Shown here piece after piece: positions 8,834 to 39,509 of a stretch of DNA of 44,192 nucleotides (positions are counted from its first letter, which is position 1; the number at the start of each line of letters is the position of its first letter). Source of the DNA: Chrysochromulina tobinii (lineage: Eukaryota > Haptophyta > Prymnesiales > Chrysochromulinaceae); NCBI GenBank assembly GCA_001275005.1, contig JWZX01002775.1, positions 1 to 44,192 on the forward strand, given 5' to 3'. Made by a program: the position numbers and the translations under genes. Under the pieces are notes generated by a model. That model was not told where the DNA came from. It saw nothing but the letters and a program-made list of their open reading frames with translations, and did not search any database.

Positions 8834-11800
8834 TCAAAAGTTCAGGGCGATCTTCATGCCGCGACGCTGCAGCAAGCCCAGCAGATCTTTTTGGTCAGCT
8901 TCGGAGAGCGCCGAGTTGAACGCCAAGTTGAGCGCGCTGACGGTCGATCGCGCCTTGGCGAGCGTCTCAATCAGCGTGATGACCCACTCCTTTTTGAGCG
9001 AGGTGGCGGCGAGATCGACCTCGAGCACGTCGCGGTTGTGCCGGAAGAGCCCGGTCAGCAGCAGCATGGCCCCGTGCAGCATGGGCCTCTCCCGCAGCAA
9101 CAGGAGCTTTTCGCCCTCGACCACGTCGAACGCGTCGCACCGCATGTACCTGATGAGGGACGCAATCGGAAGGCGTACTCAGAAGGAGAGAGGAGAAGAA
9201 TCAAGGGCCTTTAGGAGAGAGAGGCCATCCGAGGGGTTCCAGAGGAGGCATCGCATGTACGCGAGACAGGAGACAGAGTCTTCCTTGAGAAGCATCGCGC
9301 CGATGCGCTCGAACGACTCAACCATCGTTGACACCTGATGAGCGAGGCAATTCGGGAGGGAGGGAATGGTGGAGGCCATCAGAGAGCTCATGGTAAGCGT
9401 CGTGGTGGGCACCCGCCCGCCTCGGTGCGCTCGAGGTTCGAGCGCCGTGCCGGGCACCTTGCGCACGTCGAGTGACCGAAGTGTCGAGTTGGTCTCAAGA
9501 GACTTGACGAGGGCAGGCACATCCAGCTGCGTGTTGGACAGGTCGAGAACTCGGATCGGGCACTTGTCCATCTTGAGCACGGCCGCGAGATCCGCCTGAG
9601 ATTCCTTCGAGATCTGGACCGAGCTCAGATGCAGCACGGAGACGCGCTCGTAGTGCGAGGGAATGCCCCCGGGCACCGGCCGGATCTTGGAGAGGATGAG
9701 CTTCACGTGCGCGTTCGCGAGGCGCGCGTCGTTCATGAAGCAGCCCCACGTGTGCCCCTCGTACACCTGGAGGAATCTCGAGCCGGGGGGGTTTCGTGAG
9801 AGGGGGGGTGTGGTTTCGTCGGAGGAATCTCGAGCCGGGGGGGTTTCGTGAGAGGGGGGGTGGTTTCGTCAGGGCTCCTCAGGGCTCCTCAGGGCTCCTC
9901 AGGGCTCATCAGGGCTCCTCAGGGCTCATCAGGGCTCCTCAGGGCTCCTCAGGGCTCATCAGGGCTCCTCAGGGCTCCTCAGGGCTCATCAGGGCTCCTC
10001 AGGGCGGCTCAGGGCTCATCAGGGCTCCTCAGGGCGGCTCAGGGCTCATCAGGGCTCCTCAGGGCGGCTCAGGGCGGCTCACCGTGAGAGTCTCGAGCTG
10101 GGGGAAGGTTTCATTCCGCGCCATGAGTTCGGTCGGCGCGAGGAAGAGCACCTGATGACGGGAGGCATCATTCGAGCTCATCAGTGGCATTCAGCGGCAT
10201 TCAGCGGCATTCAGCGGCACCTTGTTCGTGAAGAGCTCCTCTATGCTGGGGGCCATCATCAGCTTCACTCAGTGGCACTCAGTGGCACTCAGCGGCACCT
10301 GATTCGTCAAGAGCTCCTCCATGACGGGCTTCGATCGCAACGGCTCCAGATCCGCCTCAGTTCGAATGTCGACGATGATCACGAGCGCATGCAACTCGAC
10401 GGCCTGCTTGAGAACCTCACCTGTGGGGAAGAGGGGCGGGCGCCGCGGTGAGCACCTGCATGCAGCTCGACGGCCTGCTTGAGAACCTCACCCGCATCAG
10501 ACGAGACTCCTTTAGGCAACGACTCCTCGATGCTCTTGAGAATCATATCGCGGGGGTTTGTGCGCTTGGCCTCATCGGCCATGATGGCACCCAGCTTGCC
10601 GAGCGCGAGGGGTACCGGTACCTGCCGCCGTGGTGGGCACTCCGCGCTGGGGTGAGCACTTGCATGCAAGGCGCGGCGCCTTGCTGAGCGCGAGGGGCAC
10701 TGTCACCAGCCGCCGGTCGCTCTTGGCACCCTGATGGCAATCCGAGGCAATCAGTGGCAATCAGTGGCAAGCTCTGGCACCTGCCGCCGGTCGCTCTTGG
10801 CACCGAGACGCGCCACGTCACTGAGGAGCGTGCTCGTGAGCGTGTGCAGTGCCTGCGAGAGCAGCAGGTCGTGCTCCTGTGGGGAATGGGGACGCCGCGC
10901 TGTGGTGAGCACTTGCATGCAAGGCGGGGGGGCCTCCATGGCAACCAACGTACCGTCTTGCTCTTGGTGCGGCAGAAGAAATTCGTCAGATTGGCATGGT
11001 CTTCGGAGGAGGGCGCCATCAGCTGATCGATCATCGAGAGTGCGTTCACGGTCGCCACCGCCTGCTCCTGCGGTGTCGGTGTCGTCCTTCCATCGATGCC
11101 TGAGAGAGGAGGGCGTGGCGCCGTGGTGAGCACTTGCATGCGAGGCGGTGTCGTCCTTCCATCGATGCCTTCTTTACCGGCGGGTGGTTTCGTGTCATTT
11201 GCGCTCCCGGCGGCTTTGGCAACGACCGAGGTAGTCAGCGACGGCAGGCTGCGGAGGTACAGGCGCTGATCTGACACGCGCAGTGTCTTCTTGATGATCT
11301 CATCAGCAACCTCCGTGTACTCGGCCTGCAGCGCCATCAGCGAGCCGCACTCAGAGAGTCAATGAAAAAGGCACTCAGAGAGTCAATGGGAGAGGCAATC
11401 AGACGCCATCAAGGGGGGGGCAATCATCAAGGGCGATGAGAGAGGCAATCAGACGCCATCAGGGGTGGGGGGCACTCATCAAGGGTAAGCACACACCTGT
11501 AGCACGTCAAGGAGCTGCGTGCGCGCCGCCTCGTACTTGGCCACCGACGAGAAGAGGAGCTTCGCGTGATTGCCCTCATTCAAGTCGATGATGACCATAC
11601 TCGCATCTTTCTTGAGAAGCTTCTTCGATTTGGCGGCGGCGCTGTTGCCCTTCGAGCCGAAACGCAGCTGGTGGCGCGAGCCATACCTGATGAGAGAAGC
11701 AATCGGACGGTACTCAGAAGAGAGGAGAGGCAATCAAGAGCCATCAAGAGCCATCAAGCGCCATCAAGCGTCATCACGCGCCATCAAGCGCCATCAAGCG

Positions 11801-14800: not shown

Positions 14801-17800
14801 GGCCCCAGCGTTGTTAACATCTGCCAGATCGGGAGGCAAGTGTGAACAGATCGGGAGGCACACGGCTCATCAATCGCCATCATGCTCGCGGCCAACGGAC
14901 GCACTCAGACGCGCAGGTGAGGCGCTCGAGCGTCGAGCTATACTTGACGCAATCAGAGATCATCAGAGATCATCAGAGATCATCAGTGGTACTCACCGGA
15001 CGAGAGGGTGAGGCGCTTGAGCGTCGAGTTGAACTTGACGACACCGGCGAGAAGCAGCACGACCGGATCGACCTTCCCACCAGGCTGTAGCTCCTTGGCC
15101 TCGCCTTCCTTGGTCTCCTTCGAGAAGTCGATGTGGCCTTCCTTATCAGGGTACGCCAGCTCGCTCTTCTCGGGCGTGATTTGGAAGGCGTCGCAGCTGA
15201 CGAAACCGACGAACCCGAGCCGGCAGTTGGAGGCTCAGCAGCTCATCAGTCGCAATCCATCGCAATCAGCGACTGCCATCAGCGGTGCTCACCTGACGAA
15301 CCCGAGCCGGCAGTTGCAGTCGTCCTGGAGGAGGTACGAGCCGATGAACGTGAGGATGTCGTGCGTGTTCGCGCCGGGCACCCCGCGCACGTCGAGCGAC
15401 GTCAGAGATTCGTTACGCTTGAGCGAGACCGCGAGCTCGTACCTGATGAGGGGCGCACTCAATGGTGATGAGGGGCGCAATCAAAGGTGATGGGGGGCGC
15501 AATCACAGGTGATGAGCGAGATCGCGAGCTCGTACCCATCCAAGTTAGGGTTGTCGGACACGTTGAGCACCTTGATGTTGCATGGTGCGCGTTCGGACCT
15601 GATGAGGGGCGCAATCAGCGGTCATCGTGAGCGGCGATCCGACGCAATCATCGATCAGCAGTTGTACTCAGCGGGGCAATGAGCTCATTCACACCAGAGG
15701 AGCTGCTTGAGCGCCGTCGTGAACTGCTTGCCGAGGTCGTTTTTGGCGAGGGAGAGGGAGGTGATCTTCTCGTACCCGTGATCTCCCTTGCCCAAGCCTT
15801 CCACAAGCGCCGAGATGAGCTTGCCGCCCGCCTTGTCGTTGAACTGGGCGTTGCTGAGCACCAAGGCGGTGATCTTGCACTGGTTGTCCTGTGAATGTGA
15901 AGGGCGAGAGCGCTGTGGTGAGCACTTGCATGCAAGGCGGTGATCTTGCACTAGTTGTCCTGGCACAGAGTGGCCGGAAAAGGATATGCCCTCGCTGTGG
16001 TGAGCACTTGCATGCAAGGCAGGTCATCAGTGGCAATTAACGTACCTGGCAGAGTGGCCGGAAAAGGATATGCCCTCCTTCGCCCTCCGCCCCGATTGCG
16101 ACGCCCACACCCGACGAGGTGAGGTCGAGGCACTCGAGCCGCGTGTTTGCGCTCACGAGGGCGCCTGTTCAGGGGGCAAACGGAACCGCAATCGGAACCG
16201 CAGGACGAGGTTCGTCAAGAGGGCGCTCGGGCGGAGAGGTTCGTCAAGAGGGCGCTCGGGCAGAGAGGTTCGTCAAGAGGGCACTCGGGCAGAGAGGTTC
16301 GTCAGCCCCCCGAGCGCGCGCCGATGATGCCGCACGTCACGCGGTTGAGGGTGCCGTTTTGGCACGCTGTCGAGAGGTCGACGCGCTTCAAGGCGTCATT
16401 GCTGGCACCGGTGAGCTCGGGTACAGGTAGGGTCACCACGGACTGGCCTCCCGATCGCGAGACGGTGATGATGTCGAGCCGCTGTAGCTTCTCGTTGCCT
16501 CGCAGCGCCTGCGCCAGGGTGTTGATCAGCTCAATCTTCATGTTGTTCAGCGTCACGTGCGTGAGCGTCCGGTTGCCTCGCAGGCAGCCCGCGAGCAAGC
16601 GGAACGGCTCTACGTCCTTCAAGTCGGAGCGTGAAAGGTCGAATTCACACCGTTCCACATTAGGAAAGAGGCCGAAGTCGTTACAATAGGCGACCTGCGC
16701 GTTCGGGTTCGTCAGCAACGCGTTCCCAATCTCCGATCGCGCCTTCGAGTCGATCGTAGCTCCGGGCCCGAGATTGAAGGCGGTGAGCGTCGTGTTGGCA
16801 CGAAGCGCGCCCGCGATCAAGACGGCGTCCGAGGTCGACGCCTCTTTTGGCCACGTGAGCGTCTTCGTCTCCTCGGAGAGCACGAACCTGATGAGGGAGG
16901 CAATCAGACGTCATCAGAGGTCATCAGAGGTCATCAGACGTCTCCTCGGAGAGCACGAACCAGATGAGGGAGGCAATCCGCATGCACTCAGGAAAGGCGA
17001 TGAGGGAGGCAATCTGCATGCAATGAGGGAGGCACTCAGGCGCCGCAATCAGAAAGGCCGTGACGGAGGTCATCAGGGAGGCAATCAGGGAGGCCATTAG
17101 GGAGGCAATCAGGGAGGCAACAGCCATCAGAGAAGTCCGCACGCACATGTCACAGTGCAAGAAGGAGAGCTTGCGAGATTTGTTCTCGAGCAGAGCTCGG
17201 CCGATCTCGTCCTTGGCGCGCGTCGGCAGATGGCGATCTGAATGTTCGACGAGCTCCACCGACACCAGTGAGGGATGCTTACGCAACAGCTCGGCCAAGG
17301 CAGGCGTCTACCGACGGCTGATTATGCGAGAGGCCTGCGCAGAAGGGGCGCCATCGTTTGTCGCTCGTCATCGGGAGGGGCGCTAGCATTGCGCTCGTCA
17401 TCAGGAGGGGCGTTAGCATTGGGCTCGTCATCAGGAGGCCATCCGAGCCCATCCATGGTCCGTCAAGGTGCAATCAGACGCAATCAGTGCCGAGGACGCA
17501 CCGAGCCGGCGCTGGTTCGTCAAGGTGCAATCAGACGCAATCAGTGCCGAGGACGCACCGAGCCGGCGCAGCCCCTTGAGGGATTGCAGGCTGTTGCAAA
17601 TCATCCGCACGCCCACCATGCCGAGGTTATTGCTGTTCACGTTGAGGTCGGTGAGAGAGCGGTTATTGGCGAGCGCCTCGCACATCCGGTGGAAGCCACT
17701 GAAGTGCGTCTCGACGAGGGTGGAGAGCTGGTTGTTCGAGATGTCGAACTTGGTCAGTTTGGGGCACGTGACGAGCATGCGCGCCATCCCGGGCACATCC

Positions 17801-20800
17801 TCCCAGCTGATGTCGTTCTGCGAGACGTTGATGTTCTGCACCTCCAGGTTCGAGTCCGTGATGAACCAGAGCGCGGACCTTCCATTTTCGGACAGGGGTT
17901 CGTCATGGAAGTCCCAAGTGGGCCGTTGGCGAGCGAGAAGAGCGCCAAGGTAGCCCGAGGCGATCCGGCACGTGTTATTCATGTACCTGAGGAGGGACGC
18001 AATTCGAAGCGATTAGGGGCCAAGAGAAGCCATCATAGGCGCACGCCCGAACAACCCGAGGCAATTAGAGGCAATTAGAGGCAATTAGAGGCAATTAGAG
18101 GCCATTAGAGGCCATTGGAGGCCATCAGAGGCGCACGCCCGAATGACCCGAGGCAAGTCGGCACGTGTGATTCTCAACGTACCGGTTGTTGAGGAATTCG
18201 GCGGCCGCCTTGTCATTGACCCAGCCCGGCCAGCCCGGACCAGCGGGCGGCGTGAGAGACGTGACCGTGATCAGGAGGTACTCGGCATAAAGGCCCTCCT
18301 GGAAGGAGAGGTGCTTGAACTGGTACTGCGCGGGCGCCTTGTCGGTCTGCATGGCGAGCGTCGCCGCGAGCGCCACGCCGTACTCGCCGTCCAAATCGAG
18401 GCGTGACCTGATGATGGAGGCAATCAGAGGTCATCATCCGAGGTCATCATCGAGCTCAGGTCCAGCTGAGCGGCCTGATGAGGGTGGCACTCAGAGAGGT
18501 CATCAGAGGCAATCAGACGTACCAAAGGCCCAGCTCGTCGGGATTGAGCCCGAGGACGCAATCAGAGGTCATCAGAGAGGTCATCAGAGGCAATCAGACG
18601 TACCAAAGGCCCAGCTCGTCGGGATTGAGCCCGAGGACGCACGCCACGTTCTTGCTTGTGAATTCACGCCGGCCGTTTTCTTGGTTGTTCACAGCGACGC
18701 GCCGGAGCATCTTCTTGCACACTTCATTCAGCTGCGCTTCCGTCTGCGACGGAGGCATCAACACGTACTCGACGAGCGCGGTGACGACCGTGTGCATGGC
18801 ATGAGACTTGGGGACGACCGCCACAATGCCAGTGCGCATGTCGAACCCAGGCACCTGAGGAAGGAGGCAATGAGAGGCAATGAGAGGCAATGAGAGGCAA
18901 TGAGAGGCAATGAGAGGCAATGAGAGGCAATTAGAGGCAATGAGAGGCAATGAGAGGCAATGGGAGGCAATGAGAGGCAATGAGAGGCAATGAGAGGCAA
19001 TGAGAGGCAATGAGAGGCAATGAGAGGCAATTAGAGGCAATTAGAGGCAATGAGAGGCAATGAGAGGCAATGGGAGGCAATTGGAGGCAAGTAGAGGCCA
19101 TCAGAGGCTCATCAGTGGTCATCAGAGGCCATCAGAGGCCATCAGAAATGCAATTCGAGGTGCGCTTGTCGAGATCCGCGCACCTTGGACCGTTGAAGCA
19201 CTCGCAATGAGTGTGTATCGCAATCAGTGCTCATCAGTGCTCATCAGTGCTCATCAGTGCTCATCCGCGCACCTTGGACCGTTGAAGCACTCGCACACAG
19301 AGCGCATAGCAATCGGCGACCTCGTCTTCGCCCGAGACGACGCGAACCTTCTTGCCACGCAAGATCGAGTTGAGATCCAACGCTGCCTCGAGCGTCTTGA
19401 CTTGTTTTTGCTGCACCTGCGTCGTCTCCTGCACCTTCTCCTCCTTCCCACTCGCCGCCGCGCCTCCCGATGAGTAGGCAGAGCCCAGGGACTCTTCCAA
19501 GGAGCCCTTGCGCTTCTGGCGTTGCCGACCGCCCCCGGCTTGGGCTGCCTCCTCCTGGTCCTTCGCCGCGGCCTGATGAGGGGAGCCATCAGAGGTCATC
19601 AGAGGCCATCAAGAGGCCATCAAGAGGCCATCAGAGGCCATCCGAGGTAATCAGTGGCCATCCGATGCCATCAGAGGTCATCCGATACAATCAGGTGCAC
19701 TCAAATGCAATCCGGATCATCAGTGGTAGTCAGCGGCCATTACCTTCTCGGCTTCCTTGAGCTCCTTTTCGACCTTCTCCTTGCCCGCCGAGGACTGTAC
19801 CTCGATTCGCATCCGGTTCCGAATGCCGGCCGAGATGCCTAATTTGGTACACGGGAAGCCGAGAGCGCTGTGGTGAGCACTTGCATGCCAGGCAGGTCAT
19901 CAGTAGCAATCCGCATACCTAGTTTGTACAGCTGCAGCCGCGTGTCAGGCAGCTCGCCCAGGTCGATGACGGCGCTCTCCCCGCTATCCTTCCCGCTTTG
20001 GATCGCAGAGTAACTGATGAGGGAGGCAATCAGGCGTCCTCAGAGACCATCAGACGTACTGCGGAGGCAATCAGTCGTCATCGGATGCAATCAGAGGTCC
20101 TCAGCACGCGTACGTGAGCAGCAGCATCGAGAGAAGGACGGGCACTCCGATGGCCTCGACGAGGAAGGAAAGGAGGAACTCGAACTTCTCATCAAACGCC
20201 TTCTGGCTCATGTTGAGCATTCGATCGAAGAAGAAGTCGTGGGCGGCCCGGAAGGCCGCATCCTTTTCGAACGCCTCGTGGATCTGCTTGTGGATGATGC
20301 TGATTGCGACGGGGACGACCTTGACCTTCTCAAGGCCCAACCCCTTTTCGGAGGCGAGGATCATCGTGAAGCTCATCGAACGCACCTGATGAGGGCGGCA
20401 ATCAGGAGTGTCATCAGATGAGGGAAGCAATCAGGCACGTCGCGGAAGGTGTGAAGCTCATCGAACGCACGTGTGTCGGATGCATGCCATCGTTGCCGTA
20501 ACGGTTGAGGACGTGGACCGGCGTGAGCGTGGTCAAATCTCCCTTCATCTCGAGGTCGAACCCGTTGATGAGCACCTTCATCAGCTCGAGGCAGTGCTCG
20601 CCCGAGTCGATGGAGAACGTAACGGTCGCTGCGGACTTTGGAAGCGCCTCGGGGGGCTCGACGCCACCGAGGTACCTGATGAGGGAGGTAATCAGGTAGG
20701 TCATCAGTGACAATCAATAGGCAACCCGAGGTGTCATCAGAGGTCATCAGAGAAGCAGCACGCTCGTGATGAAGCCGAGGAGGAGTCATCAGAGGTCATC

Positions 20801-23800
20801 AGTGGCCATCTAGAGGCCATCTAGAGGCCACCAGTGGCCATCAGTGGCCACCAGTGGCCATCTAGAGGCCATCAGAGCTCCTCAGAGGAGCAGCACGCAC
20901 GTGGCTTCGATCCATAAAGCCACTGGGTTCATGTAGGTTATGTTCGGGAGTTGTTTGGCAGAATTGGGGATTAGGTCTCCTTTGATCTTGTCGCGCATCA
21001 GGCAGAATCCGTCCACGTTCGCCGCGGAGGCGATGCAGCCGAGAAAGTGCATCAGGGTCGGCTGGATCGCGTCAAAGGAGATGTACCTGGACGCAGCGAG
21101 GCGCACAAGCGAGGCACTCAGGGAGGCGATTGGGCAGGTCATCAGGAAGGAAGGCCGTGACGGAGGTCATCAGGGAAGCAATCTGGGAGGCAATCAGGAA
21201 GGCCGTTACGGAGGCCATCAGGGAAGCAATCTGGGAGGCAATCAGGAAGGCCGTGACGGAGGTCATCAGTGAGGCGATGGGGAGGCACTCATGGAGGCCA
21301 TCAGGGCGAAACACGTACAGCTGCTCCACGGTCTGAATGACTTGATGCCACAGGCCAGACGCAACGATGGGGACCGCGCGCCCACCACGACGCCCTCCTG
21401 ACGCCGGCAGCTTGCGCTGCAGCGCAATCTTGGTCAGGGCCTCGGCCATCTCGACTGTGTAGAAGCCCGCAGGCATCGCCTGATGAGGAGAGCCATCCGA
21501 CGCGCAATCAGATGCAATCAGACAGGCATCGCCTGATGAGGGGAGCCATCCGACGCGCAATCAGATGCAATCAGATGCACTAGGATGCAATGAGATGCAA
21601 TGAGATGCAATGAGATGCAATGAGATGCAATGAGATGCAATGAGATGCAATGAGATGCAATGAGATGCATTCAGATACAATCAGATACAATCGGATGCAA
21701 TTCGATGCAAGAGCGGTCATCCGCGGTCATCGGCGGTCATCCGCGGCCATTAGCGGCCATCACCTTGAGCGCCATCTCGACCGCGGGGATGACGTGAGCA
21801 CGCGAGCTCGGCGAAGGCAGTGGACGGATCTCAAACTCGAGCAGATCGAGCAGATGCTCCTTCTCGCCCTTGGCGTTCGGGATCCTCGAGGGAGACATGA
21901 TCTTCTTGTTGAATTGGTTGATGAAGGGCTGGCGGAGCTCGCGCATGCATTCCTTCTCGGCTTCCTCGAGGTATGTTTGTAGCTCGACTTGAGAGTCCAC
22001 CATCAGCCGGCGCTGCGGGCGCGACGACATCAGCATGCGCTGCTTCATGACGAACTCCTTGAAGTTCGACTCGCGCTGCTTCCGCTTGAACTCCTCCTCC
22101 GCTTGCTGCTCTGCATTCGATAGACCCTTGGACGCGTGCTTGCCCTGTGGGGCGAGTGGTTGGCGTTGGGGTTCGGCTCAGTGTTAGGGCTAGGGCTCGG
22201 ATTAGGCTGAGGGCGGGTTGGGCTTCGGTTCAGGGCTAGGGCTAGGGTTGGGCTTAGGGCTAGGGTTACCTGCGACGGGTGGCTGGCTTCATCGAGATCG
22301 CGCTCCAGATCGCGAGCTGCGGCGAGATCGAGGATCTGCTGGGCGGTCTGCATGACCCTCTCATCTCGAGCCGCGAGCTCCGTCGGGCCGAATCTCGCGT
22401 CCTCGAGATCAATGCGCATCGACTCGGTGCGGAAGACCTCTTTGTACCTGTGGGGAAGAGCGCGCACAGGGCGCCGAGATGAGCACATGCATGCATTGAC
22501 TCGGTGCGGAAGACCTCTTTGTACCGGAGGTCAAGGTCATCAGGGGTCATCAGAGGTCCTCAGAGGTCATCAGCTTGTACCGGAGGTCAAGGTCATCAGG
22601 GGTCATCAGAGGTCATCACGGGTCATCACAGGTCATCAGTGAGATTGTACCGGAGGTCGAGGTTCTTGCGGCACTCGGCGATGTTGACGAGATGCTCGAA
22701 GAAACGGTTGCCCTGCACGCACGAAACGCTCGCGAGCCATCAGTACGCAATCTGGACGCAATCTGGACGCAATCAGGACGCGATCAAGGCGTACCTGCAG
22801 CTGCATCTGGATCACGGTGCGCTGCTGCTCTTGGGAGAGCTCCTTGAGATTCACCTGAGATCGAGAGGGCAATTAGGGAGACCATCAGAGGGAGGCCATC
22901 AGAGGGAGCCTCACAATGACGAAACGCAACAGGGAGGCCATCAGAGGGAGGTCATCAGAGGGATGCCATCAGAGGGAGGCTATCATAGGCCATCAGCGGG
23001 AGCCTCACAATGACGAAACGCGATTTATACTCGTCCACGTCGACACCTTCGGGGCGCGACGTGACCATCAGCCGATTGCCCGAAGGGACGAGCTCATAGT
23101 GAACGAAGGCTTCGACGATCTCGCGCATGCCCGCGGCTTCGTCAACCCCATCGACGAGCACGACGAGCGCACAGAGCTCATGCGCGATCAGAAGCATCCG
23201 TCGGTCCTCGTGGCGGTCGATGAACTCAGAGGAGATGTACCTGCCATATCGGGCATTAGAGGTCATTAGTGGTCATGAGGTCATTAGAGGTCATTGGCGG
23301 TCGATGAACTCAGAGGAGATCTACCTGCCATCTCGGCAGCATCTCGGCATCACATCAGGGCTCATCAGGCGCCAATCAGATGCAATCAGATGCAATCAGA
23401 GGCCATCAGAGGCCATCAGAGGCCATCAGAGGGCATCAGAGGGCATCAGAGGGCATCAGAGGCCATCAGAGGCCATCAGAGCCGAGGACGTACCAGCGCA
23501 GCAGGCCGTTCGGATCGGAAAGGAGCTCCTGTGGATCATCTCCGTGCTCGCGTAGCAGCCGGACAATGCGCTGCACGAAGACAATCACAGGCACGAGCCT
23601 CACGCCCTCGCCCGCGGTCTTTGGGTCCCCACAGCCCTCGGCCACCATGAAGAGAGCCTGCTTGATCATCCACGTCTTACCAGTGCCCGGTCCGGCGCGC
23701 ACGAGCACGGGCTGGGCCGCATGGGTGCCTTCTTGCCGCTTGGGTGAGGGTTGCATCTGCTCAGAGGTCATTAGAGGTCATTAGAGGTACTCAGAGGTCA

Positions 23801-26800: not shown

Positions 26801-29800
26801 CGGGCTCCTCAGTCGCAATCAAGAGGCCATACGAGAGGAGCCAGGGAGGTCTCGCGTTCCTTTCATCCGCGGCGTCGGACCTTCTCCCGTCGCCTGGTCT
26901 GGCGCCCCCTCCCCTGTGAACGCCTCTGTGAACGCCTCTGTGAACGCCTCTGTAAAAGCCTCCTCCGCCGGTGCCGCCGCGTCAACGGCCACCTGGCTGA
27001 TGGCCGCGCTCATCACCGCCGCTGAACTGTCAGTGCTCGGCTTTCGCGCGATGATCGGGGAGGGCGCCGTCCCGGGCGCCGTCACACTCGAAGGGGCCGC
27101 TCGCTTTCGGACGAAGGTTTCGTCAGCGTTGGCGTTGGACATGGCCACGGCCATCGCCTCCGCAGCGGCCGCGGCCTTCGCCTCCGCGGCCTCCTCGGCC
27201 GCCGCGGACGAAACGGTCACCACCGCCGCAGCCGCGAGCGCTGCCGTGAGCGCTGCAGCCTCGATGGACGCGACTGGCGCCGTGTCGAGGTCGGCCACCT
27301 TTTGCGAATTCGCATCGAGCGCATTAAAGAGCTTCTCATCGTCGGCCAGGCGCACCTGATGAGGGAGGCAATCAGACGCAATCAGAAGACGCAATCAGAC
27401 GCAATCAGACGCAATCATAGTCGGCCAGGCGCACCTGATGAGGGAGGCCATCAGACGCAATCAGACGCAATCAGACGCAATCATCGTCGGCCAGGCGCAC
27501 CTGATGAGGGAGGCAATCAGACGCAATCAGACGCAATCAGACGCAATCATCGGCGGCCAGGCGCACCTGATGAGGGAGGCCATCAGACGCAATCAGACGC
27601 AATCAGACGGAATCAGACGCAATCATCGTCGGCCAGGCGCACCTGCAAAAAGCGGGAGGCACTCACGGCTCATCAGTAGTCATCAACCGGCCATCATGAA
27701 GCTTCTCATCATCCACAAGGCGCGCACGACGATGAACTTCTCCTTGCGAAACAATCAGTCGCAATCAGAGCTCATCAGTGGCGCACGTGATTCCCAGGCC
27801 CGAGGATGAACTTCTCCTTCCGAAACAATCAGTCGCAATCAGAGCTCATCAGTGGCGCACGTGATTCCCAGGCCCGAGGATGAACTTTTCCTTCCGAAAC
27901 GTGAGAGGGCCCTTGGCCGCATTGATCGCCTTGATGAGGAGATCGACCGCCGCGGAGGTGTACGTGCCACGGATCGCCGCCTCACCTGCGACTCAATCAG
28001 ACGCAATCAGACGCACTCAGACTCAATTAGACGCAATTAGAAGCAATCAGGTGTACGAGCCACGGATCGCCGCCACCGCTCCGACCCGACCTTTCCACAG
28101 CCCACACCTGATGAGGGAGGCAATCAGCATGCAATCACGATCGCGGCCTCACCTCCAACCCGATCTTTCCACAGCCCGCACAGCTCATTCTCGTGCAGCT
28201 TGAGATCGGTCACTGACGAGCCCTCCATCACGTTCGTGAGCGCTTGGATGGCTGTGGAAGGGGGGAAGCAGTGGCCATCAGAGGTCAACAGAGGCCATCA
28301 GAGGCCATCAGAGGTCATCAGAGGTCATCAGAGGCCATCAGAGGCCATCAGAGGCCATCGGAGGTCATCAGAGGTCATCAGTCCACCTGCTGGCGACCAG
28401 ACGAGGTCGGCTTGCTTGTGCTTGGGCGAGCAGTCACACAGGTTGGTGCCCGAGAGATCCAGTGTGCGTAGGGGCCGGTGGGCCAGCAGTGCCGTGATGA
28501 CCTGCAGCGCAATCAGGCGCAGTCAGACGAAGTCAGACGCAGTCAAGCACAGTCAGGCGCAGTCAGACGCAATCCACGAGAGCCCATCCTGTGATTACCT
28601 TTGCGCCGGCCTCCGAGCCGAGATTGTTATGCGCTAATGAGCAGCTCGTCATCGCGACAAGGGCCGGCAGGGCCGGTGGCAGCGCCGTCGCGAATGCGCG
28701 CCCAAGCTGGTTGTGCGATAGGTCGAGAGACATGAGCATGAGGCTCTTGCCCTCGCGCAGCTGCCAAATTAGGGAGGCGTTTGCCAAATTAGGGAGGCGT
28801 TCGCCGAATGGGAGACCGTTTCGAAATCGGTTAGGCGTCCAGAGGCACTCGGGGGCGCAATCCGACGCAATCAGACGCAATCAGGCGCCATCAGACGCAG
28901 TCAGACGCAATGAGACGCACCGTCGGGCTAGGACAGCCGAGTTGGGTGATGAAGATGGCGGCGGCCGTGTCAGCGACGCCTGAGCTCGATAGCACGAGAT
29001 TCCGGAGGCCGCCGCCCAGAGTGATGACGTTGGCGAGGTGGCCGATCTCGTCCTCCTTGGCATCCCCACAGCTGAGGCGCGAGAGATCGAGGTCCGCGAG
29101 CGAAGACGTTCCCTCGCGCAGGCACGCTTGGCAAAAGGTCACCATCGACGACGCGTGCAGCGTGTGGTTGCCGCCCAGGTTGAGTTTCGTCAAGACGCCC
29201 TTCGTCTGCGCGAGCTGCCGGCCGAGGTCGGCGATCTCGTCCGGCGAGATCATGTTATCGCGCAGATCGAGGGACGTGATCTCCGGCACAAGCAGCCCCA
29301 CCGCCCGTAGCGACGTCTGCCGATGGCCCCCGATGAGCGCGCGCAGGTTGATGGCGCTCTTACCGGTCGCAACCGACGCCTTGTGAAGCCCCTTCGAAAA
29401 GGCCTTGCCCATCTTCGCGCCCTCGCTCAACACGGCGCCCCAGCGCTCGGGCCAGCGCCAGGGAGACGCAGCCTCGGGGGGGAGCGCGCACAGGCCCTTG
29501 CACAGGACACGCGTCACGAGCGACACGAGCACCTTTTCGTTCTTCGCCCGGATCACAAGCGGTGCGGAGGAGACGAGGCTGACGACGGGCAGCTCGCCCG
29601 ACTTGACCAGCTGGGTCACCTGATGAGGGAGGCAATCAGACTCAATCAGACGCAATCAGACGCAATCAGACGCAATCAGACGCAATCAGCCCGACTTGAC
29701 CAGCTGGGTCACCTTGCCGACCTCGTCACGCACCACCTTGGGCAGCCGCTCGAACTCCTTGACCACCTGATGAGCGAGGCCATCAGGCGGCATCAGCGGC

Positions 29801-31858: not shown

Positions 31859-32857
31859 ATGACCATCGCGTACGATGCTGGGGACCTCAACGAGCTGACC
31901 GTCTTGTTTCGGTGGCACGGCACGATTATCCCCAAGGTGCTGTGCCGGCCGGTGCTGTGGCTGCTGGTCGCGTCCCATGTGGGCTTCTTGTATATGCACA
32001 TGTACCGCGACGACATCACGTTGCCAACGCTCCCGTGGAAGCTCACAGCGGTGCCGACGGCCTTGCTCACCTTCTTCATCGTCTTCTACTCCAGCAACTG
32101 CTACAACCGCTACTACACCTTCTACTCCAAGTGCACGGGCATGTCCGCCGCGGTCATGTGCTGGGTCGGCCTGCTGCGCGTTCACTTCCCGAAGGCGAGC
32201 CCGGAGATCCTGTGGAACTTGTGCCGGCACATGGTCGCGAGCGTGTACATGCTCTACTTCCAGCTGGCAGGGGGCGCGAGCGACGGCGGCAAGCAGGTGA
32301 CCGAGAGCGAGTGGCAGGTGCTCCTCCAGACTGGTTTGCTATCCCCGGAGGAGAAGAAGAAGCTCGCCGAGTACCGTGGCTTCAAGCCCTTCCTGTTGCA
32401 GGTCTGGGCGATGCGCGCGCTCTCAGACCACATCGCTGTGGACAAGGACAAGGGCCCGAACGCCAACCTCGGCCCCTTTCAGACGCAGGCGCTCGCCGCG
32501 CGCGGCTGCTGCGCCGACATTGTCAACACGATGACGCAGCCTGTGCCCTTCCCGTACTACCACACTCTCACCCTGATGCTCTCGCTCAATCTCCTGATGA
32601 TCTCGTACTCGCTGCTCGAGTTCGAGACGACGATGACGGTCCCGGTCTTCTTCATCATCGTCTTCGTCCTCCTCGGCCTCAAGGAGACGGCCGTCGTGCT
32701 CGCCGACCCCTTCGGTGGCAACGACGTCGACTTCGAGACCGAGGTCTACATGGCCAACATGCTCGCGAACTCGAAGGCGCTCATCTCACCGTCGGCGGAC
32801 TACGTGCCGCAGACGCTGCCGCTCGCTGTTGTGAAGGCGTCGCCCACAAAGAAATGA
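31859..32857 (+). CDS. Bestrophin-like anion channel
   Basis: 332 residues, intronless, ATG at 31859. Hydrophobic segments lie near residues 22-42, 54-76 and 235-280. The N-terminal FYSSNCYNRYYTFYSKCTGM stretch and the C-terminal DPFGGNDVDFE motif are hallmarks of bestrophins (animal DPFGEDDDDFE); the latter follows the last hydrophobic helix. Bestrophins are pentameric chloride/bicarbonate channels. Algal relatives act at thylakoid, pyrenoid or plasma membranes, and the location cannot be told here because no clear targeting peptide is visible. It stands divergent to the giant gene. Confidence 0.85.
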   Translation: MTIAYDAGDLNELTVLFRWHGTIIPKVLCRPVLWLLVASHVGFLYMHMYRDDITLPTLPWKLTAVPTALLTFFIVFYSSNCYNRYYTFYSKCTGMSAAVMCWVGLLRVHFPKASPEILWNLCRHMVASVYMLYFQLAGGASDGGKQVTESEWQVLLQTGLLSPEEKKKLAEYRGFKPFLLQVWAMRALSDHIAVDKDKGPNANLGPFQTQALAARGCCADIVNTMTQPVPFPYYHTLTLMLSLNLLMISYSLLEFETTMTVPVFFIIVFVLLGLKETAVVLADPFGGNDVDFETEVYMANMLANSKALISPSADYVPQTLPLAVVKASPTKK

Positions 32858-34047
32858 GCTGTGAAGGCGTCGCCGCCCTATTTTGGACTGGCATCGTGAC
32901 CTAATTAGGCAAGTCGGATGGCCAACTCTGTGGCCTCGTAGCACGCGGCGGAGGGCTTGGGAGTCGCTTTCGCAGCCGGCGGCGACGCCTTGGGCACCGT
33001 GTTGGGCGCTGGGCCCATGCCACCCGTTGAGCCATCCATGGTGGCGGCATCCAGTGCGCAACCCGCAGAAGGCCTGGGCAGAGTGGTCGATGGTGTAACC
33101 ACAAATGGTCGCTTCCACAAAGTGCAAAACCGTTGATGAATGTGCGCAGCGTGTGGGGGCGGGGGCCCTTGTGATGCAGCAGGCGGCAGCAAGAGTTGCA
33201 TGCAGGCGGCAGCGAGGGACGCATGGGCAGATGCGCGTGCCGCGCGACGTGGCGACGTGTCAAACGGTGAGCGCGGACCACGATCGACGATGCGCGGGTT
33301 GTGAAAGTTACTAACGAGTAACGTGTGCTCGTGTTGCTGTTGCATTTGCTGTTGGTATGCCGTGTGTCTCTGTTTGTGTATGCGCTCACTGCTTGGGCCA
33401 GCAGCCAGCACTTTGAGCTCTGCCCGAATAAAAGTTAAATATGAGTGCTCACGTGTCGCGTATGTGGATTGTTGCCCGCGTCGCGGATGACGGCGTCCTA
33501 GGCCGCTATCGCTAGAGGGACCGCGCTCCGCGGACGGCGACGGGACCTACACGATGCCGAGCCCGCGACAGCACGTCCGAAGGGCCCTCAAAGGGCCCGT
33601 TAGTCAAAGGAGAAAGCACCCACGCTGCCACCGAAGGCGGTAATGAATGCGGGCCGGGCCAGGGGCCACAGCGCGCATAAGCTCGTCCGGCCTCCATGAT
33701 GAGGGATGCAATCATCGGTCATACGAAGTCATCAGAGGCCCCGCACAAGCTCGTCCGGCCTCCGCGCTGTGGCGCCGCCCACACCTCACTGAGTGGCAGA
33801 CACTGTCGCCAAGTGCTTTCGCCGCTGCTCACCACCCTTCCCCACAGCACCGAGAGAGAGAGAGAGAGCGGCATGGGGAGAGTGGCACAGCCGCGAGCCA
33901 TGTCACCGAGGCGGCCTCGCCATCCACGTCGGCATGCAAGTGCTCACCAAGACGCCCTCTCCTCTCCCCACAGCCACGAGCCATGAGCCGAGCTACCTCA
34001 GCCATCGAGCCTCACCTAACGCAGAACTCAAACGCGCCAAAGCCGAG
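32858..34047. other. Gene-free region with one introner-like copy
   Basis: 32865-32890 repeats the bestrophin gene's last codons (GAGCTGTGAAGGCGTCGCC). 32902-32910 carries TAATTAGG. 33425-33445 is AT-rich (AATAAAAGTTAAATATGAG) and could hold a poly(A) signal. 33666-33765 is an intron-type insertion with a 17-bp direct repeat (AAGCTCGTCCGGCCTCC) at both ends. No convincing ORF or RNA gene. Confidence 0.55.
33666..33765 (-). repeat. Intron-type element matching the Hsp33 intron
   Basis: The core (ATGATGAGGGATGCAATCAT, then CGGTCATACGAAGTCATC...) is the reverse complement of the repeated unit in the Hsp33 intron at 41818-41940, including the adjacent GGCCCCGCAAAAGCTCGTCC-like flank. Here it sits outside any gene I can support. 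Confidence 0.75.
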
Positions 34048-34827
34048 TCAAGCTGCTGGATGCTCACGCAGCCATGTGGCTGCTTCCTCCTTTGCGTCGT
34101 CGGTGCAATCATCGATCGCGGCGCTCGCCACCATCGAGAAGTAGCGGCGCGCCATCTTCTCGTCCTTCGGGAAGCCCAAGTGGCGCTTAGTGTATGCGCG
34201 TCCCAGATTGTAGCACGCGGAATTGCTGCCGCGTCCGGCGGCCTCGCCCAGCAGCATAGAACCACGCGCAAGGCACTTTGGCACGCCAACACCATGCAAG
34301 TAGCACCCTCCAAGGTTGCCAGTCCCACTTGCATGCCCAGCCTCGTGGCTCTTCTCGAACCACTCGAAAGCCTTGACCAAGTCCTTGGCGAGGCCCTTCT
34401 GACCAAGCCAGTACCATGCTCCCAGTATGCACATCGCCCAGCCATCACCAGCCTCGGCCTCACGCAGCTTCTCCGCCACCTCTTCCTCCTCCTGCAGCTT
34501 CAGCTTCCACGCGTCCAACTTGTCGCCCGTGAGAGCGCCCGAGGTGACCATCGCGCGGATCATGTTCTTGACCCGCAGCGCCGGCTGCAGCCTCGTGCCC
34601 ATCGCCAAGTTCGTCACCGGGCTCTTGTGCTGCTGCTTGAGCCACTCCTCGATGGCCGAGCGCTCGTACACGTTGCCGTCCTCCGCCGTGACGGGGTCGA
34701 CGGGCAGCGAGAAGGTGATGGGGCAGACGAGCTCGGCAAAGGCCTCCTCAGTGGCGCTCTTGTGTCGGCGCAGCTGCACCGTCTCGTCCTCGGCCTCGGC
34801 AGCCGCGCGGCCGCGCTTGGGCGGCAT
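34048..34827 (-). CDS. U-box/Sel1-repeat protein
   Basis: 259 residues, intronless, from the conserved MPPKRGR Met at 34827. U-box LVCPITFSLPVDPVTAEDGN, acidic helix KLQEEEEVAEKL, then Sel1-like repeats (MCILGAWYWLGQKGLAKDL, GNLGGCYLHGVGVPKCLARG) and the C-terminal REHPAA. The repeat part differs most from other copies, as expected for a binding surface, while the U-box is nearly invariant. The upstream block at 34850-35090 matches those at 4547 and 6661. Confidence 0.85.
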   Translation of the reverse strand: MPPKRGRAAAEAEDETVQLRRHKSATEEAFAELVCPITFSLPVDPVTAEDGNVYERSAIEEWLKQQHKSPVTNLAMGTRLQPALRVKNMIRAMVTSGALTGDKLDAWKLKLQEEEEVAEKLREAEAGDGWAMCILGAWYWLGQKGLAKDLVKAFEWFEKSHEAGHASGTGNLGGCYLHGVGVPKCLARGSMLLGEAAGRGSNSACYNLGRAYTKRHLGFPKDEKMARRYFSMVASAAIDDCTDDAKEEAATWLREHPAA

Positions 34828-35302
34828 CGCGACGCCGGTGGGCACAAGGAGGAAAGGCGGCACCACCCCTCGCCGCTCAACACGACGCTTTTGAACTTCC
34901 GCGCAAAACGACGCGGTCTACCGGGTATCGGCCCAAAACGCGCGCCGCAACGAGATCATTCCGATCCGCACACGAGCTCGATCTTCAAAGAAATTTATCT
35001 GGTCGGAACGCCCGTATCAACCCTCGTTGAGCTTGAGGCCGCGTCCGTCACGCGTCCCGTCCGGCAGGTCCTCCAAACACGCACCACCCCATTCACACCC
35101 CATTCACAGCCCACTCACAGCCCACTCACACCCCACCCGCCACCGCACCGCAAACGCGCAATACAGCCGATGGAACCCTCATCAGAGGCTCAGAGCGAGA
35201 GGACGCACACTAAAAGAGGGGCAACCACAAGGAACCACGAGCCGAGCTAGCGCAGCCACTGAAGCGTCATCTAGCGCAGCACTCAAACGTGCCCAAGCCG
35301 AG
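34828..35302 (-). promoter_or_regulatory. Upstream block of 34827 gene plus 3' flank of 36082 gene
   Basis: 34850-35090 is the third copy of the shared U-box promoter block. 35090-35302 matches the 3' flank of the 6946 gene (7723-7930), including a CACTCACACCCCA-type minirepeat at 35100-35145. The two U-box genes here are head to tail with only these duplicated flanks between them. Confidence 0.6.
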
Positions 35303-36082
35303 TCAAGCTGCTGGATGCTCACGCAGCCATGTGGCTGCTTTCTCTGTGGCAGCGGCGGTGCAATCATCGATCGCGGCGCTCGCCACCATCGAGTAATAGC
35401 GGCGCGCCATCGTCTCGTCCTTCGGGAAGCCCCAGTTGCCATCAGCGTATAAGAATCCCAGGTTGCAGCACGCGACTTTGCTGCCGCGTTCAGCACCCTG
35501 GCTCATCAGCGTATTCGCACGCGCAAAGCACTTTGGCACGCCATACCCCAGCAAGTAGCACGCTCCAAGGCTGCCAGTCCCACTTGCATCCCCAGCCTCG
35601 TGGCTCTTCTTGTACCACTCGAAAGCCTTGGCCAAGTCCTTGGCGAGGCCCATCTCACCATACTCGCACCAAACTCCCAGTTGGTGCATCACCGCGCCAT
35701 CACCAGCCTCGGCCTTACGCAGCGTCTCCGCCACCTCCTCCTCCTCCTCCAGCTTCAGCTTCCACGCGTCCACCTTGTCGCCCGTGAGAGCGCCCGAGGT
35801 GACCATCGCGCGGATCATGTTCTTGACCCGCAGCGCTGGTAGGAGCTTCACGCCCATCGCCAAGTTCGTCACCGGGCTCTTGTGCTTGTGCTTGAGCCAC
35901 TCCTTGATGGCCGAGCGCTCGTACACGTTGCCGTCCTCCGCCGTGACGGGGTCGACGGGCAGCGAGAAGGTGATGGGGCAGACGAGCTCGGCAAAGGCCT
36001 CCTCGGTGGCGCTCTTGTGTCGGCGCAGCTGCACCGTCGCGTCCTCGGCCTCGGCAGCCGAGCGGTCGCGCTTGGGCGGCAT
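35303..36082 (-). CDS. U-box/Sel1-repeat protein
   Basis: 259 residues, intronless, conserved Met at 36082 (MPPKRDR). U-box LVCPITFSLPVDPVTAEDGN with IKEWLKHKHK instead of IEEWLKQQ. Acidic helix KLEEEEEVAETL, Sel1-like repeats (MHQLGVWCEYGEMGLAKDL, GSLGACYLLGYGVPKCFARA), end REHPAA. Its upstream region is not the shared block; it carries a 24-bp-armed palindrome 55 bp from the ATG. Confidence 0.85.
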   Translation of the reverse strand: MPPKRDRSAAEAEDATVQLRRHKSATEEAFAELVCPITFSLPVDPVTAEDGNVYERSAIKEWLKHKHKSPVTNLAMGVKLLPALRVKNMIRAMVTSGALTGDKVDAWKLKLEEEEEVAETLRKAEAGDGAVMHQLGVWCEYGEMGLAKDLAKAFEWYKKSHEAGDASGTGSLGACYLLGYGVPKCFARANTLMSQGAERGSKVACCNLGFLYADGNWGFPKDETMARRYYSMVASAAIDDCTAAATEKAATWLREHPAA

Positions 36083-36728
36083 GTGTTTGCAAACACCCGC
36101 GTCCGTTCCTGTGCGCACGTTTCGGAACTTAAATAGTTGTGCATGCAGTTCAGTTCAGTTCAGTTAACTGAACTGAACTGCATGCACAAATTAGCGTTGA
36201 AACGTGCCTCTCTAACGTGAGCCAAGCCAGTCGCCCCCCCCACAGGACGGTGTGTGTGCGCACAGAGGGTCCCGGGGGGTAAATTTGTGGGTGAGCCCTA
36301 TTAGTGGTGCTAATTGGATAAACTGTGCGGCCGCCGGAGCTTGCCCTCGTGCCCGTGGTATCTTCGTGGCCGCGGCCTTGCCCTTCGGCGGCCCCGTTGC
36401 CGTTCCGTTGGCCGAGCCTAAATGTAGAAAGCATCTCAAAGCGAAGCACACCACACTCTAACGTCCTAGTGTGACGGTCAAAGATCGCTGCGGTAGACCG
36501 CTCACTGCTCTACAGAGTGCAGTTCCATCCATTCTCAATTTCGCGAGTCTTCTTCAGGTCGGCCTTCGTGACAAATCCCGGACGGCCGAGTGACGAATCC
36601 CGGACGGCAGCGAGGCATGAGGGCCGAACGGGCGCTCCTCTGCGTGCCATTCGTATTCAGTCGGCCCAGTCCACTTCCCACGTGAGCTGGGTTCGGGTTC
36701 AGGGTTCGTCAGGGCTCGTCAGGGTTCG
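36083..36728. other. Intergenic region between U-box gene and DnaJ-TPR gene end
   Basis: Contains the palindrome at 36137-36189. 36560-36610 has two CGGACGGC words. 36655-36690 repeats the last coding bases of the DnaJ-TPR gene (TCGGCCCAGTCC, CCCACGTGAGCTG) found at 36731-36761, separated by AGGGTTCGTC units. No gene supported. Confidence 0.55.
36137..36189. repeat. Perfect inverted repeat, 24-bp arms, 5-nt spacer
   Basis: Arms 36137-36160 and 36166-36189 are exact reverse complements. They consist of TTGTGCATGCA plus reiterated GTTCA units, with a GTTAAC palindrome at the centre allowing several registers. It lies ~55 bp upstream of the 36082 start codon, so it may act in transcription or in the 5' UTR. 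Confidence 0.9.
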
Positions 36729-39509
36729 TCAGTCGGCCCAGTCCGCCTCCCACGTGAGCTGCGCGTCCTTGAGCTGCGCCTTAATCTTGTCGTTGTCCGG
36801 ATCCATTTTGAGCGCCGTCTCGAGCTCGTGCACCGCAAGCTTGACCGTTGTCCGCTCGTTGAGCGCGAGGTGTGCCTCCGCGGCTCGGAGATACGCCTTC
36901 AGATAGCTCGGATCGATCTCGTACGCATCGACGGAATCTTCGGCGGCCTGACGCAGATAGCGCTTCGTCTGAGGCAATTAGAGGCAATTAGAGGCAATTA
37001 GAGGCAATTAGAGGCAATTAGAGGCAATTAGAGGCAATTAGAGGCAATTTTGAGGCAATTAGAGGCAGATAGCGCTTCGTCTGGGACGACGCGCGGACCA
37101 AGCTGGAGTGAGTGGCACTCAGAGGCCATAAGCATGCACTCGGAGGCCATCAGCATGCACTCAGAGGCCATAAGCGGCACACAGAGGTAACCCGAGGTCC
37201 TGCGAGGCCATCAGAGGTCATCAGAGGTCCTGCGAGGCCAACAGAGATCATCAGAGGCAATCACCTTGGAGGGCAGTCCAAGCTTGAGACCGGCCGCAAT
37301 CAGAGGTCATCAGAGGTCATCAGAGGTCATCAGAGGCCATCACCTTGGAGGGCAGCCCAAGTTTGAGACCGGCCGCAGCGCGGTTCGACAGGTACTCTTT
37401 CTTCTGAGGGTTGAGTCGAATCGCCTCGGTAGCGAGGTCGTACCTGTGGGGAAGTGGGAGGGGGCGTCGTGGTGAGCACTTGCATGCACGAGGGTTGAGT
37501 CGAATCGCCTCGGTAGCGAGGTCGTACCTGATGAGGGAGGCAATCAGAGGCCATCAGTGGCCATCAGAGGCCACCAGAGGCCATCAGAGGCCATCAGAGG
37601 CCATAAGAGGCCATAAGAGGCCATTAGAGGCCATCAGAGGCCATTGGTGGCCATCAGTGGCCAGCAGAGGCCATAGGACGTACGAGCGTTGGTACTCCTT
37701 CTCCTTGAACGCCCAATGGGGGAGGCAATCAGTGGCAATTAGAGGCCATCGGACGTACGAGCGTTGGTACTCCTTCTCCTTGAACGCCCAATGGGGGAGG
37801 CAATCAGTGGCAATTCGAGGCCATAGGACGTACGAGCGTTGGTACTCCTTCTCCTTGAACGCACGGACCGCCGCGTCGTTGAACTCCTCGGCGACCGCTG
37901 GCGCCTCGGCAGAGCTCGGTTTGAGCTCGGGTCGCGTCTTCGGCGGCACGTACCTGTGGGGAAGTGGTGGGGCGTCGTGATGAGCACTTGCATGCACGAG
38001 GGTCGCGTCTTCGGCGGCACGTACACGGGCGCTCGTTCCTTCTTCGCAATCAGAGGCAATCAGAGGCAATCAGTGGCACGTACACGGGCGCTCGTTCCTT
38101 CTTCGCCGCCTGATCGAAGCCGACTCCACCCACCGCCTCCCACGGCCGGGCCGCCGCGTCGGCACCCACCTGACGAGAGGCATGCGATCGAGGAGGCACT
38201 CAGCATGCAATGAGGAGGCATGCAATCGGGCCGCCGCGTCGGCACCCACCTGACGAGAGGCATGCGATCGGCGTACAATCAGAGGCCATCAGAGGGTAAG
38301 ACCACCCACCTGTGTCTCCTCTCCAAAGGTCTGGCGGGCAATCAGCATGCAATCACCATGCAATCAGCATGCAATCAGCATGCAATCAGCATGCAATCAG
38401 CATGCAATCACCATGCAATCACCATGCAATCACCATGCAATCACCATGCAATCACCATGCAAACAGCATGCAATCAGCATGCAATCAGCATGCAATCAGC
38501 ATGCAATCAGACCCACCTGTGCCTTCTCTCCGAAGGTCTGCAGCAGATCATCGGTGCTCATGCCAGCCGTTGTGGCGACGATCGCGCCAGACCCGATCAC
38601 CGGGGCGCTACTGCCGCCGCCGCCGCCGCCATTGTACCCCAGCTCCCGCTGGCGCTTATCTTCGAGACTCTGCGTCGTTGTGTACACGGAGCCTGCATGC
38701 ACGTGGTAGTTGGGAGGCCATCAGTCGCAATCAGCATGCACTCAGTCGCAATCAGCATGCACTCAGTCGCAATCAGCATGCACTCAGTCGCAATCAGCAT
38801 GCACTCAGTCGCAAAATCAGCAATCACCTGCATGCACGTGGTAGCTGGGATCCTCTTTGCTCCCCGCTGACCATGGTATGGAGAGGTTGATGCCAAACTC
38901 GGCGTGCGGCCGGTAGTCGCCTCGCTTCTTGAGCAGCATCTCGATCTGGTAGGGGTCCGCGCCCTTGAGCGCCATCACGAGCACATCCTCGAGCGACTGC
39001 ATCGGCGGGATGACGAAGTTCTCGGCCCAACGCTTGTAGTCAAAGTTGTTGGTGGTGAGGAAGTGGTAGGCGGCGTGCACGGCGGTGAACACGTCGGCCG
39101 CCTCCTTTTGGCGGCGCATGTTCTTGTCCGGATGCCACTTGAGCGACATCTTGCGGAATCGCATCTTGACCTTGTCGAGGTTGCCACGGTCCTCCTTCTT
39201 GACGCCGAGGAAGTCGTAGGCCTGGTCGGTGGTCATGGGCATGCCCGGGATCTCGGGCAGCGGCTCGAATGGCGCCGTGTCGGGCGCGTCCTTCTGCTTC
39301 ACATCCGCCGCCTCAAGGAATGCGTTCAGGTCGGGCAGGTTCTGTGCGCCCTCGACGCCGCCTTCGTACGGCCGCGCCGCACGGTCGTTGATCTCGCCAA
39401 AGGTGCCGTCACCCCGGACGTTGTGGCCCGACAGCTTGTGCACGTACGTGGGCGGCGGGGGAGTCGGCGTCGCGTCGGAGGATGCGGCCGCGCTCTCGCT
39501 GTCGGCCAT
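36729..39509 (-). CDS. DnaJ-domain TPR co-chaperone, six exons
   Basis: Exons 39509-38828, 38692-38517, 38169-38084, 37953-37834, 37443-37344 and 36968-36729. The sum is 1,404 nt, an open 467-residue frame. ATG is at 39509 (MADSESAAASS). Residues ~100-175 are a J domain (AYDFLGVKKEDRG, helix, HPD in KWHPDKNMRRQ, VFTAVHAAYHFL). The HPD loop stimulates Hsp70 ATPase. The middle is Gly/Ala-rich. The C-terminal ~150 residues form TPRs (AVRAFKEKEYQRSYDLATEAIRL, YLSNRAAAGLKLG, DPSYLKAYLRAAEAHLALN) of the kind that bind EEVD tails of Hsp70/Hsp90. A J domain plus TPR fits a DNAJC7-like adaptor, although J is N-terminal here, opposite to DNAJC7. All five introns carry exon duplications. Confidence 0.85.
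36969..37343 (-). repeat. DnaJ-TPR intron 5 with AGAGGCAATT decamers
   Basis: Nine or so decamers at 36970-37060 are bounded by two copies of the exon-6 start (CAGATAGCGCTTCGTCTG, plus strand; 36953 and 37066). The exon-5 end is copied at 37262-37298. Confidence 0.85.
37444..37833 (-). repeat. DnaJ-TPR intron 4: nested insertions with duplicated exon ends
   Basis: The exon-4 end plus donor is present three times (about 37676-37706, 37752-37781, 37830-37860), each followed by a GGGGGAGGCAATCAGTGGCAAT-like array. The first 38 bp of exon 5 (37406-37443) recurs perfectly at 37490-37527, with a CCCCACAG element between the copies. Confidence 0.85.
38170..38516 (-). repeat. DnaJ-TPR intron 2: AGCATGCAATC array with both flanking exon ends copied
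   Basis: About 15 AGCATGCAATC/ACCATGCAATC 11-mers run 38341-38510. A copy of the end of exon 2 lies at 38305-38336 and a copy of the start of exon 3 at 38226-38270. The 11-mer is the one found in the phosphatase pseudogene insertion at 6394. Confidence 0.85.

Follow-up and report, generated by a model that had tools for sequence, protein, structure and literature searches.

Recruitment of a 5' splice site from a target duplication has already been described for introners of the Symbiodinium microadriaticum type, in which, according to the portion of the survey consulted, the insert brings the 3' splice site, the copies are many and the coding sequence is preserved (PMC9860276). These introners carry a 4 bp duplication together with inverted repeats; earlier introner families show duplications of 3–9 bp, and the same wide survey, from which low-complexity families were filtered out, ascribes most known introner cases to DNA transposons (PMC9860276). 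It also covers introners of a haptophyte, Chrysochromulina sp., that lack terminal inverted repeats. Direct repeats at intron/exon borders are reported, in the excerpts available from three further studies, for the introner elements of Amoebophrya, which form many introns in one genome and have direct repeats of 3–5 nt, inverted repeats of 8–20 nt and non-canonical splice sites (PMC7789003), for the neointrons of Daphnia pulex, whose repeats of 4–12 bp were attributed to staggered breaks (PMC4202315), and for the 213 chosen introns from many taxa surveyed by Rogers and Bendich, where they measure 4–30 bp with a mean of 11.4 (PMC11782384). Finally, in the model of tandem genomic duplication at AGGT, as given in the part of the paper at hand, the start of the intron equals the start of the downstream exon, the whole intron being a copy of exon (PMC3443670).

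We analysed a window of 44,192 nucleotides from Chrysochromulina tobinii, corresponding to contig C1617 of a 53.15 Mb genome assembly, in which many introns begin with a copy (T1) of the start of the downstream exon (T2). As in S. microadriaticum, the insert would bring the 3' splice site and the duplication the 5' splice site, with many copies and a preserved coding sequence, but the duplications here are mostly 15–47 bp long and no inverted repeats were found in family A, one of two families of insert. The haptophyte host and, in family A, the lack of terminal inverted repeats recall the introners of Chrysochromulina sp., and the array of the second family, B, is of the low-complexity type that was filtered out of the survey. 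With Amoebophrya the present introns share direct repeats at the boundaries of many introns in one genome, although the repeats and splice sites there are of a different kind. As in Daphnia, a repeat of the adjacent exon end lies at the opposite end of the intron; the repeats here are longer, however, and, in the passages of the two papers that we drew on, neither the Daphnia study nor that of Rogers and Bendich describes a cassette common to the introns of one genome. In contrast to the AGGT model, only the first part of the intron matches the exon. The present case works like a donor-borrowing introner, but one whose duplication is not of fixed length and, in family A, is not accompanied by inverted repeats. 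In the open-licence literature, as far as the accessible parts of it go, we found no family of haptophyte introns whose duplications are long and variable, which is no proof of novelty; donor borrowing is known, and what is new is the length and variability of the duplication.

The intron-bearing genes lie on the minus strand, and a plus-strand reading of them was rejected. On the plus strand, a bestrophin gene (31859–32857) has haptophyte relatives in Haptolina ericina (taxid 156174; 69%) and Prymnesium parvum (55%). Two adjoining uninterrupted reading frames on the minus strand (34048–34866 and 35303–36118; 272 and 271 residues) are similar by eye and might encode Sel1-type repeat proteins. 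An intron-like segment at 22145–22270 (minus strand) contains telomere-like TTAGGG/CTAGGG units (array 22184–22267) before a CCCCACAG acceptor. A search of the window against Rfam gave 0 matches at gathering scores.

Direct repeats in the window were scored with +1 for a match and -3 for a mismatch at a threshold of 12, mismatched pairs from the same window serving as the null, and for 31 CTCATCAG and 12 CCCCACAG sites on the minus strand the best-scoring match to the exon start was sought upstream. On this strand the exon start was copied upstream at 8/12 CCCCACAG sites (0/126 mismatched pairs) and at 9/13 TCCCTCATCAG sites (0/142), and when all CTCATCAG sites were taken together 14/31 reached a score of 12 (0/874). 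On the plus strand, the same score was reached at 0/5 CCCCACAG sites and at 10/28 CTCATCAG sites (null, 1.8% of 670), the latter being by eye mostly repeats internal to arrays. The five repeat pairs named in the earlier note (24, 20, 34, 38 and 23 bp) are all present, but they have to be read on the minus strand; its layout of a copy, a tandem array and an acceptor stands for the copy and the acceptor, while the array belongs to family B only.

Table 1. Repeat pairs, inserts and exons in the window, all on the minus strand. T1, copy at the intron start; T2, start of the downstream exon.
Feature	Coordinates (T1 for repeat pairs)	T2	Repeat	Insert	Details
Exon upstream of the 29.6 kb intron	29713–29766				ends GGCAAG
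Repeat pair, 29.6 kb intron	29689–29712	29596–29619	24 bp, exact	family B, 29620–29688	T1 supplies the GT donor; 10-bp array ending CTCATCAG; insert absent from relative P0194
Repeat pair	20451–20470	20366–20385	20 bp, exact	family B, 20386–20450	
Repeat pair	10458–10491	10387–10420	34 bp, 1 mismatch	family A, 10421–10457	37 bp, array-free
Repeat pair	37490–37527	37406–37443	38 bp, exact	family A, 37444–37489	46 bp, array-free; GTGCATGCAAGTGCTCACCACGACGC...CCCCACAG, branch-point-like CTCAC, pyrimidine tract, AG
Repeat pair	15513–15535	15420–15442	23 bp, 1 mismatch	family B, 15443–15512	
Repeat pair	38000–38024	37929–37953	25 bp, exact	family A, 37954–37999	
Repeat pair	22493–22524	22416–22447	32 bp, 1 mismatch	family A	
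Repeat pair	1317–1339	1237–1259	23 bp, exact	family A	
Repeat pair	731–754	642–665	24 bp, 1 mismatch	family B	
Repeat pair	16939–16960	16866–16887	22 bp, exact	family B	behind another acceptor-like end
Target copy plus array, serially duplicated in tandem	27355–27642				four CTCATCAG acceptors; units of 66–79 bp; T begins GTGCGCCTGGCCG
DnaJ exon 1	38828–39509				
DnaJ exon 2	38517–38692				
DnaJ exon 3	38084–38169				
DnaJ exon 4	37834–37953				begins with T2

The intron at 29.6 kb, a simple one, offers what appears to be an empty site at the protein level; although confined to this one site, it is the strongest individual argument that insertion went along with duplication. Joining 30140–29942, 29766–29713 and 29619–28921 keeps one frame open over 317 residues, whereas each of the other two frames contains 7 stops; with the intron retained, a stop follows directly after T1. 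Only two homologues of this reading were present among 8000 scored candidates. The first, P0194, aligns without gaps at 92% identity over 252 residues, and, read at the protein level, it has no 29.6 kb intron and contains the target once; the second, P0195 (42%), is gap-free at this junction as well, such that splicing leaves the coding sequence unaltered relative to 2/2 homologues and the intron is present in one orthologue and absent from another. P0194 starts with MTTDCLPHQ. As GAT TGC CTC CCT CAT CAG would encode DCLPHQ, these first residues fit GATTGCCTCCCTCATCAG-type intron DNA, and P0194 therefore seems to be a raw genomic reading frame. The DNA behind it thus appears to hold the upstream B-type intron (before 29766) and to lack the 29.6 kb intron.

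The joined exons of the DnaJ gene give a reading of 388 residues, in which Pfam identifies a DnaJ domain (8e-12) and a weak TPR_2 match, the latter below the cut-off (E 0.56); relatives of the gene include Haptolina ericina (67%) as well as Coccolithus, Emiliania, Isochrysis and others. Against seven homologues, two of which (P0090 and P0095) carry MMETSP transcript names, the reading is gap-free at four junctions when the outer donors are used; in exon 3, short gaps occur within a few residues of the junction. Since P0091 diverges before the fourth junction, that junction rests on six homologues; P0091 itself is suggestive of presence and absence of a DnaJ intron. YVPPKTRP and YDLATEAIRLNP, which lie behind two family A acceptors, occur once each in the DnaJ relatives. 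Two introns of this gene (37444–37833 and 37954–38083) are composites of several inserts each, and the protein is accordingly obtained with the outer GT sites at 38083 and 37833 as donors and not with T1; at 38024 and 37527, T1 falls within these composite introns. According to the earlier note, the donor (GT or GC) comes from the duplicated target and the AG from the insert, which is borne out through the homologues at the 29.6 kb intron; in the composite introns of DnaJ, the product of repeated events, an outer copy acts as the donor.

Across the genome, exact copies of the family A 20-mer occur 595 times and those of the family B 18-mer 991 times (reversed patterns, 0), so that many sequence-similar introns are found in this one genome. 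Loci were chosen by the motif inside the intron, blind to the repeat: 60 of family A (L029–L048, L069–L088, L109–L128) and 60 of family B were picked from the first 100 listed places each, and places near one already taken were mostly skipped. Of the A loci 7 were dropped for want of an acceptor or of enough sequence and 1 was a duplicate, leaving 52. A copy anchored at the splice junction was present in 37/52 A loci, against 0/612 mismatched pairs, and in 29/60 B loci, against 20/708; the excess of repeats over controls on which the claim of the earlier note depended holds both in the window and genome-wide. Among the loci without an anchored copy, the 15 of family A include 4 with an exact match of 7–14 bp (0.22 expected) and the 31 of family B include 3 with one of at least 7 bp (1.36 expected). 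One anchored A locus, L127, has no GT start and a long gap and may be a mere coding repeat. At L045 (C101) and L081 (C235) the sequence around the cassette is equal on two contigs, which are either alleles or a segmental duplication. The exact A 20-mer was found in no prokaryote genome, and among viral contigs the A motif occurs in one record and the B motif in none. At the end of a phage-like IMG/VR contig (L151:4200–4554) lie the exact A 20-mer and a 10-bp array, with a flanking repeat of ~33 bp; haptophyte DNA may have been joined to this contig in a chimeric assembly.

Both families share a common anatomy. In family A a target copy of 17–47 bp (median 30) is followed by a filler of mostly 0–24 bp, GCATGCAAGTGCTCACCACGRCG, a pyrimidine-rich tract that varies and CCCCACAG or similar, and then by the exon; in family B the copy measures 15–43 bp (median 25) and precedes a 10-bp array, which ends CTCATCAG, and TCCCTCATCAG. 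Three further B copies, of 57–60 bp, extend into an array or a nested unit. CTCAC and CTGAT are taken, by consensus, to be putative branch points. The upstream copy begins with GT in 29/37 and with GC in 4/37 A loci, and with GT in 17/29, GC in 2 and GA in 2 B loci. Its left edge matches the splice-site consensus (C)AG|GTRCG and its right edge is without motif; it starts right after an acceptor-like end in 1/37 A and 5/29 B loci and also at 37527 in the window, where it directly follows a family B acceptor. Judged from sequence, the insert would be the source of the acceptor and the target copy that of the donor in both families.

The copies are identical in 8/37 A loci, at 18, 19, 22, 22, 28, 28, 30 and 37 bp, and in 11/29 B loci, nine of them at 17–36 bp and two more, of 57 and 60 bp, running into arrays. 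The duplications are thus long and variable, as the earlier note had proposed, their length differing even among identical copies, and they lack the short fixed size of those made by DNA transposons. Nor was there a terminal inverted repeat in family A, the sole family in which one was sought: its left and right ends agree at 6/12 positions, a value reached by 49% of shuffles. In 34 A loci the target copy and the filler together measure 36.7 +/- 6.2 bp and are inversely related (r = -0.74), a trade-off with a sum near 37 bp that we read as a minimum distance from donor to branch point; selection would thus also shape the lengths of the copies. Exact tandem units of copy, filler and cassette occur at L111 and L124, and near-exact serial units at L132.

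Reading frames were less informative at this scale. Joined at offsets 0, 1 and 2, the frame was open in 30, 28 and 28 of 37 A loci (28 with the intron retained) and in 16, 16 and 15 of 29 B loci (2 with the intron retained), giving no discrimination. A wider search, over 265,749 bases, collected 57 repeat events in which the insert is array-like; their strand was assigned from array motifs and is, by eye, wrong in some cases. Frame-preserving GT-AG junctions lay at the start or end of the copy in 11 of these events and in 2 antisense, while inside the copy there was no excess (7 vs 10 antisense); 26/57 had no GT/GC junction, as compared with 33 antisense. In the window, two array-only inserts at 38304–38540 and 38692–38850 have AG|GT within the duplicated segment or at its end and not at its start. 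The lengths of the 37 anchored A introns are 3n+2 in 25, 3n in 9 and 3n+1 in 3 cases (chi-square p 3e-5), and those of anchored B introns are 3n in 15/29; such a skew might stem from selection in favour of premature stops in retained introns, although stop counts in three coding regions of the window were mixed.

Altogether, we consider it probable that spliceosomal introns are made here by a short acceptor-half cassette that inserts into exons and duplicates its target. The insert carries a branch-point-like motif, a pyrimidine tract and AG in family A, or the 10-bp array and CTCATCAG in family B. A long staggered break or a pair of nicks (~17–47 nt) could be filled in to give the duplication, and the insert may be copied from another intron, often one nearby, of which it represents the acceptor half. 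The events that survive would be those in which the duplication begins at a GT or where an exon already started; later, units of target copy and insert might expand by tandem duplication, and further inserts might produce composite introns. Put more boldly, and only tentatively, half-introns may multiply: no transposase would be involved, nearby introns would be the source of branch point and acceptor, and the donor would come from the 17–47 bp target duplicate.

Two observations bear on the copying from nearby. The rarer ACGACG variant forms 6 same-contig pairs where 1.0 is expected (p 0.003; 82 thinned places), and the variable tracts are more alike within contigs (0.54 vs 0.43, p 0.0024; 18 pairs, partly the same data as in the ACGACG test). 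The ceiling of 47 bp on A copies, in a search that reached to 60 bp, would in turn speak for a break of bounded length. Anatomy and contig clustering taken together, long staggered breaks or copy-in from nearby fit better than a transposase with a fixed cut. Of the preference expressed in the earlier note for break repair or template switching over a transposase, the rejection of a fixed cut is upheld by the variation in length, which leaves a filled-in long staggered break or nick pair, target-primed reverse transcription and template switching as candidate causes.

Template switching during replication or repair, in which the polymerase jumps to a neighbouring acceptor half and returns slightly earlier, thereby duplicating an exon segment with no dedicated enzyme, strikes us as somewhat doubtful. 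It would account for the local similarity of variants and tracts, for the tandem duplication of units and for a filler between copy and cassette that varies even where the copies are identical. Free jumping, however, would not be expected to bound the duplication, and no A copy exceeds 47 bp though 60 were searchable; nor would it be expected to return to the same cassette ends (GCATGC...CAG).

We regard as unlikely a SINE-like retroposition, in which LINE machinery would reverse-transcribe RNA of the intron or cassette at a nick in the target (target-primed reverse transcription). A variable target duplication, as found here, is a feature of LINEs and SINEs, and the absence of inverted repeats in family A and the combination in family B of one fixed end with one repeat-rich end, resembling a tandem-repeat tail, agree with it. 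Furthermore, in nine contigs (C914, C962, C1004, C1323, C1586, C1728, C1778, C367 and C767) a reverse transcriptase has an endonuclease domain upstream of it on its own strand. LINE-like genes are therefore present, but nothing ties them to the inserts, and two LINE fragments, both ending short of the 3' end, are without array or cassette. Typical LINE target duplications are of ~7–20 bp, which those of 15–47 bp exceed, and a contig-local clustering of variants is unexpected from a genome-wide master.

Tandem duplication of an exon segment, with the array growing later between the copies and no insertion at all, is an established proposal for intron gain (AGGT model; PMC3443670, as far as consulted), and plain tandem duplications do exist at 27355–27642, L111 and L124. 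As the same cassette or array recurs throughout the genome, the middle part is not derived from exon; moreover, the copy at 29689–29712 is preceded by plain exon and its target occurs once in P0194. As a sole cause this model was rejected on these grounds, and we hold it to be very improbable. If an ordinary non-autonomous DNA transposon duplicated a fixed length of its target, this would explain why a cassette recurs, ends included, in hundreds of places, but the spread of 18–37 bp among identical A copies excludes a fixed-cut transposase, family A has no terminal inverted repeat, and this explanation, which we rejected, is the most improbable of all.

The proposed insertion of an acceptor-half cassette with duplication of its target bears on an old open question, the origin of introns on a large scale. 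Many of the junctions are young enough, the copies still being identical, for the event to be read directly, and the staggered-break and template-switch proposals can now be tested within one genome. The findings suggest that surveys which drop low-complexity introns have possibly missed a class of intron gain, and they point to a way of creating introns unlike that of an ordinary cut-and-paste transposon. If half-introns do multiply in the manner proposed, almost any GT in an exon could become the start of an intron.
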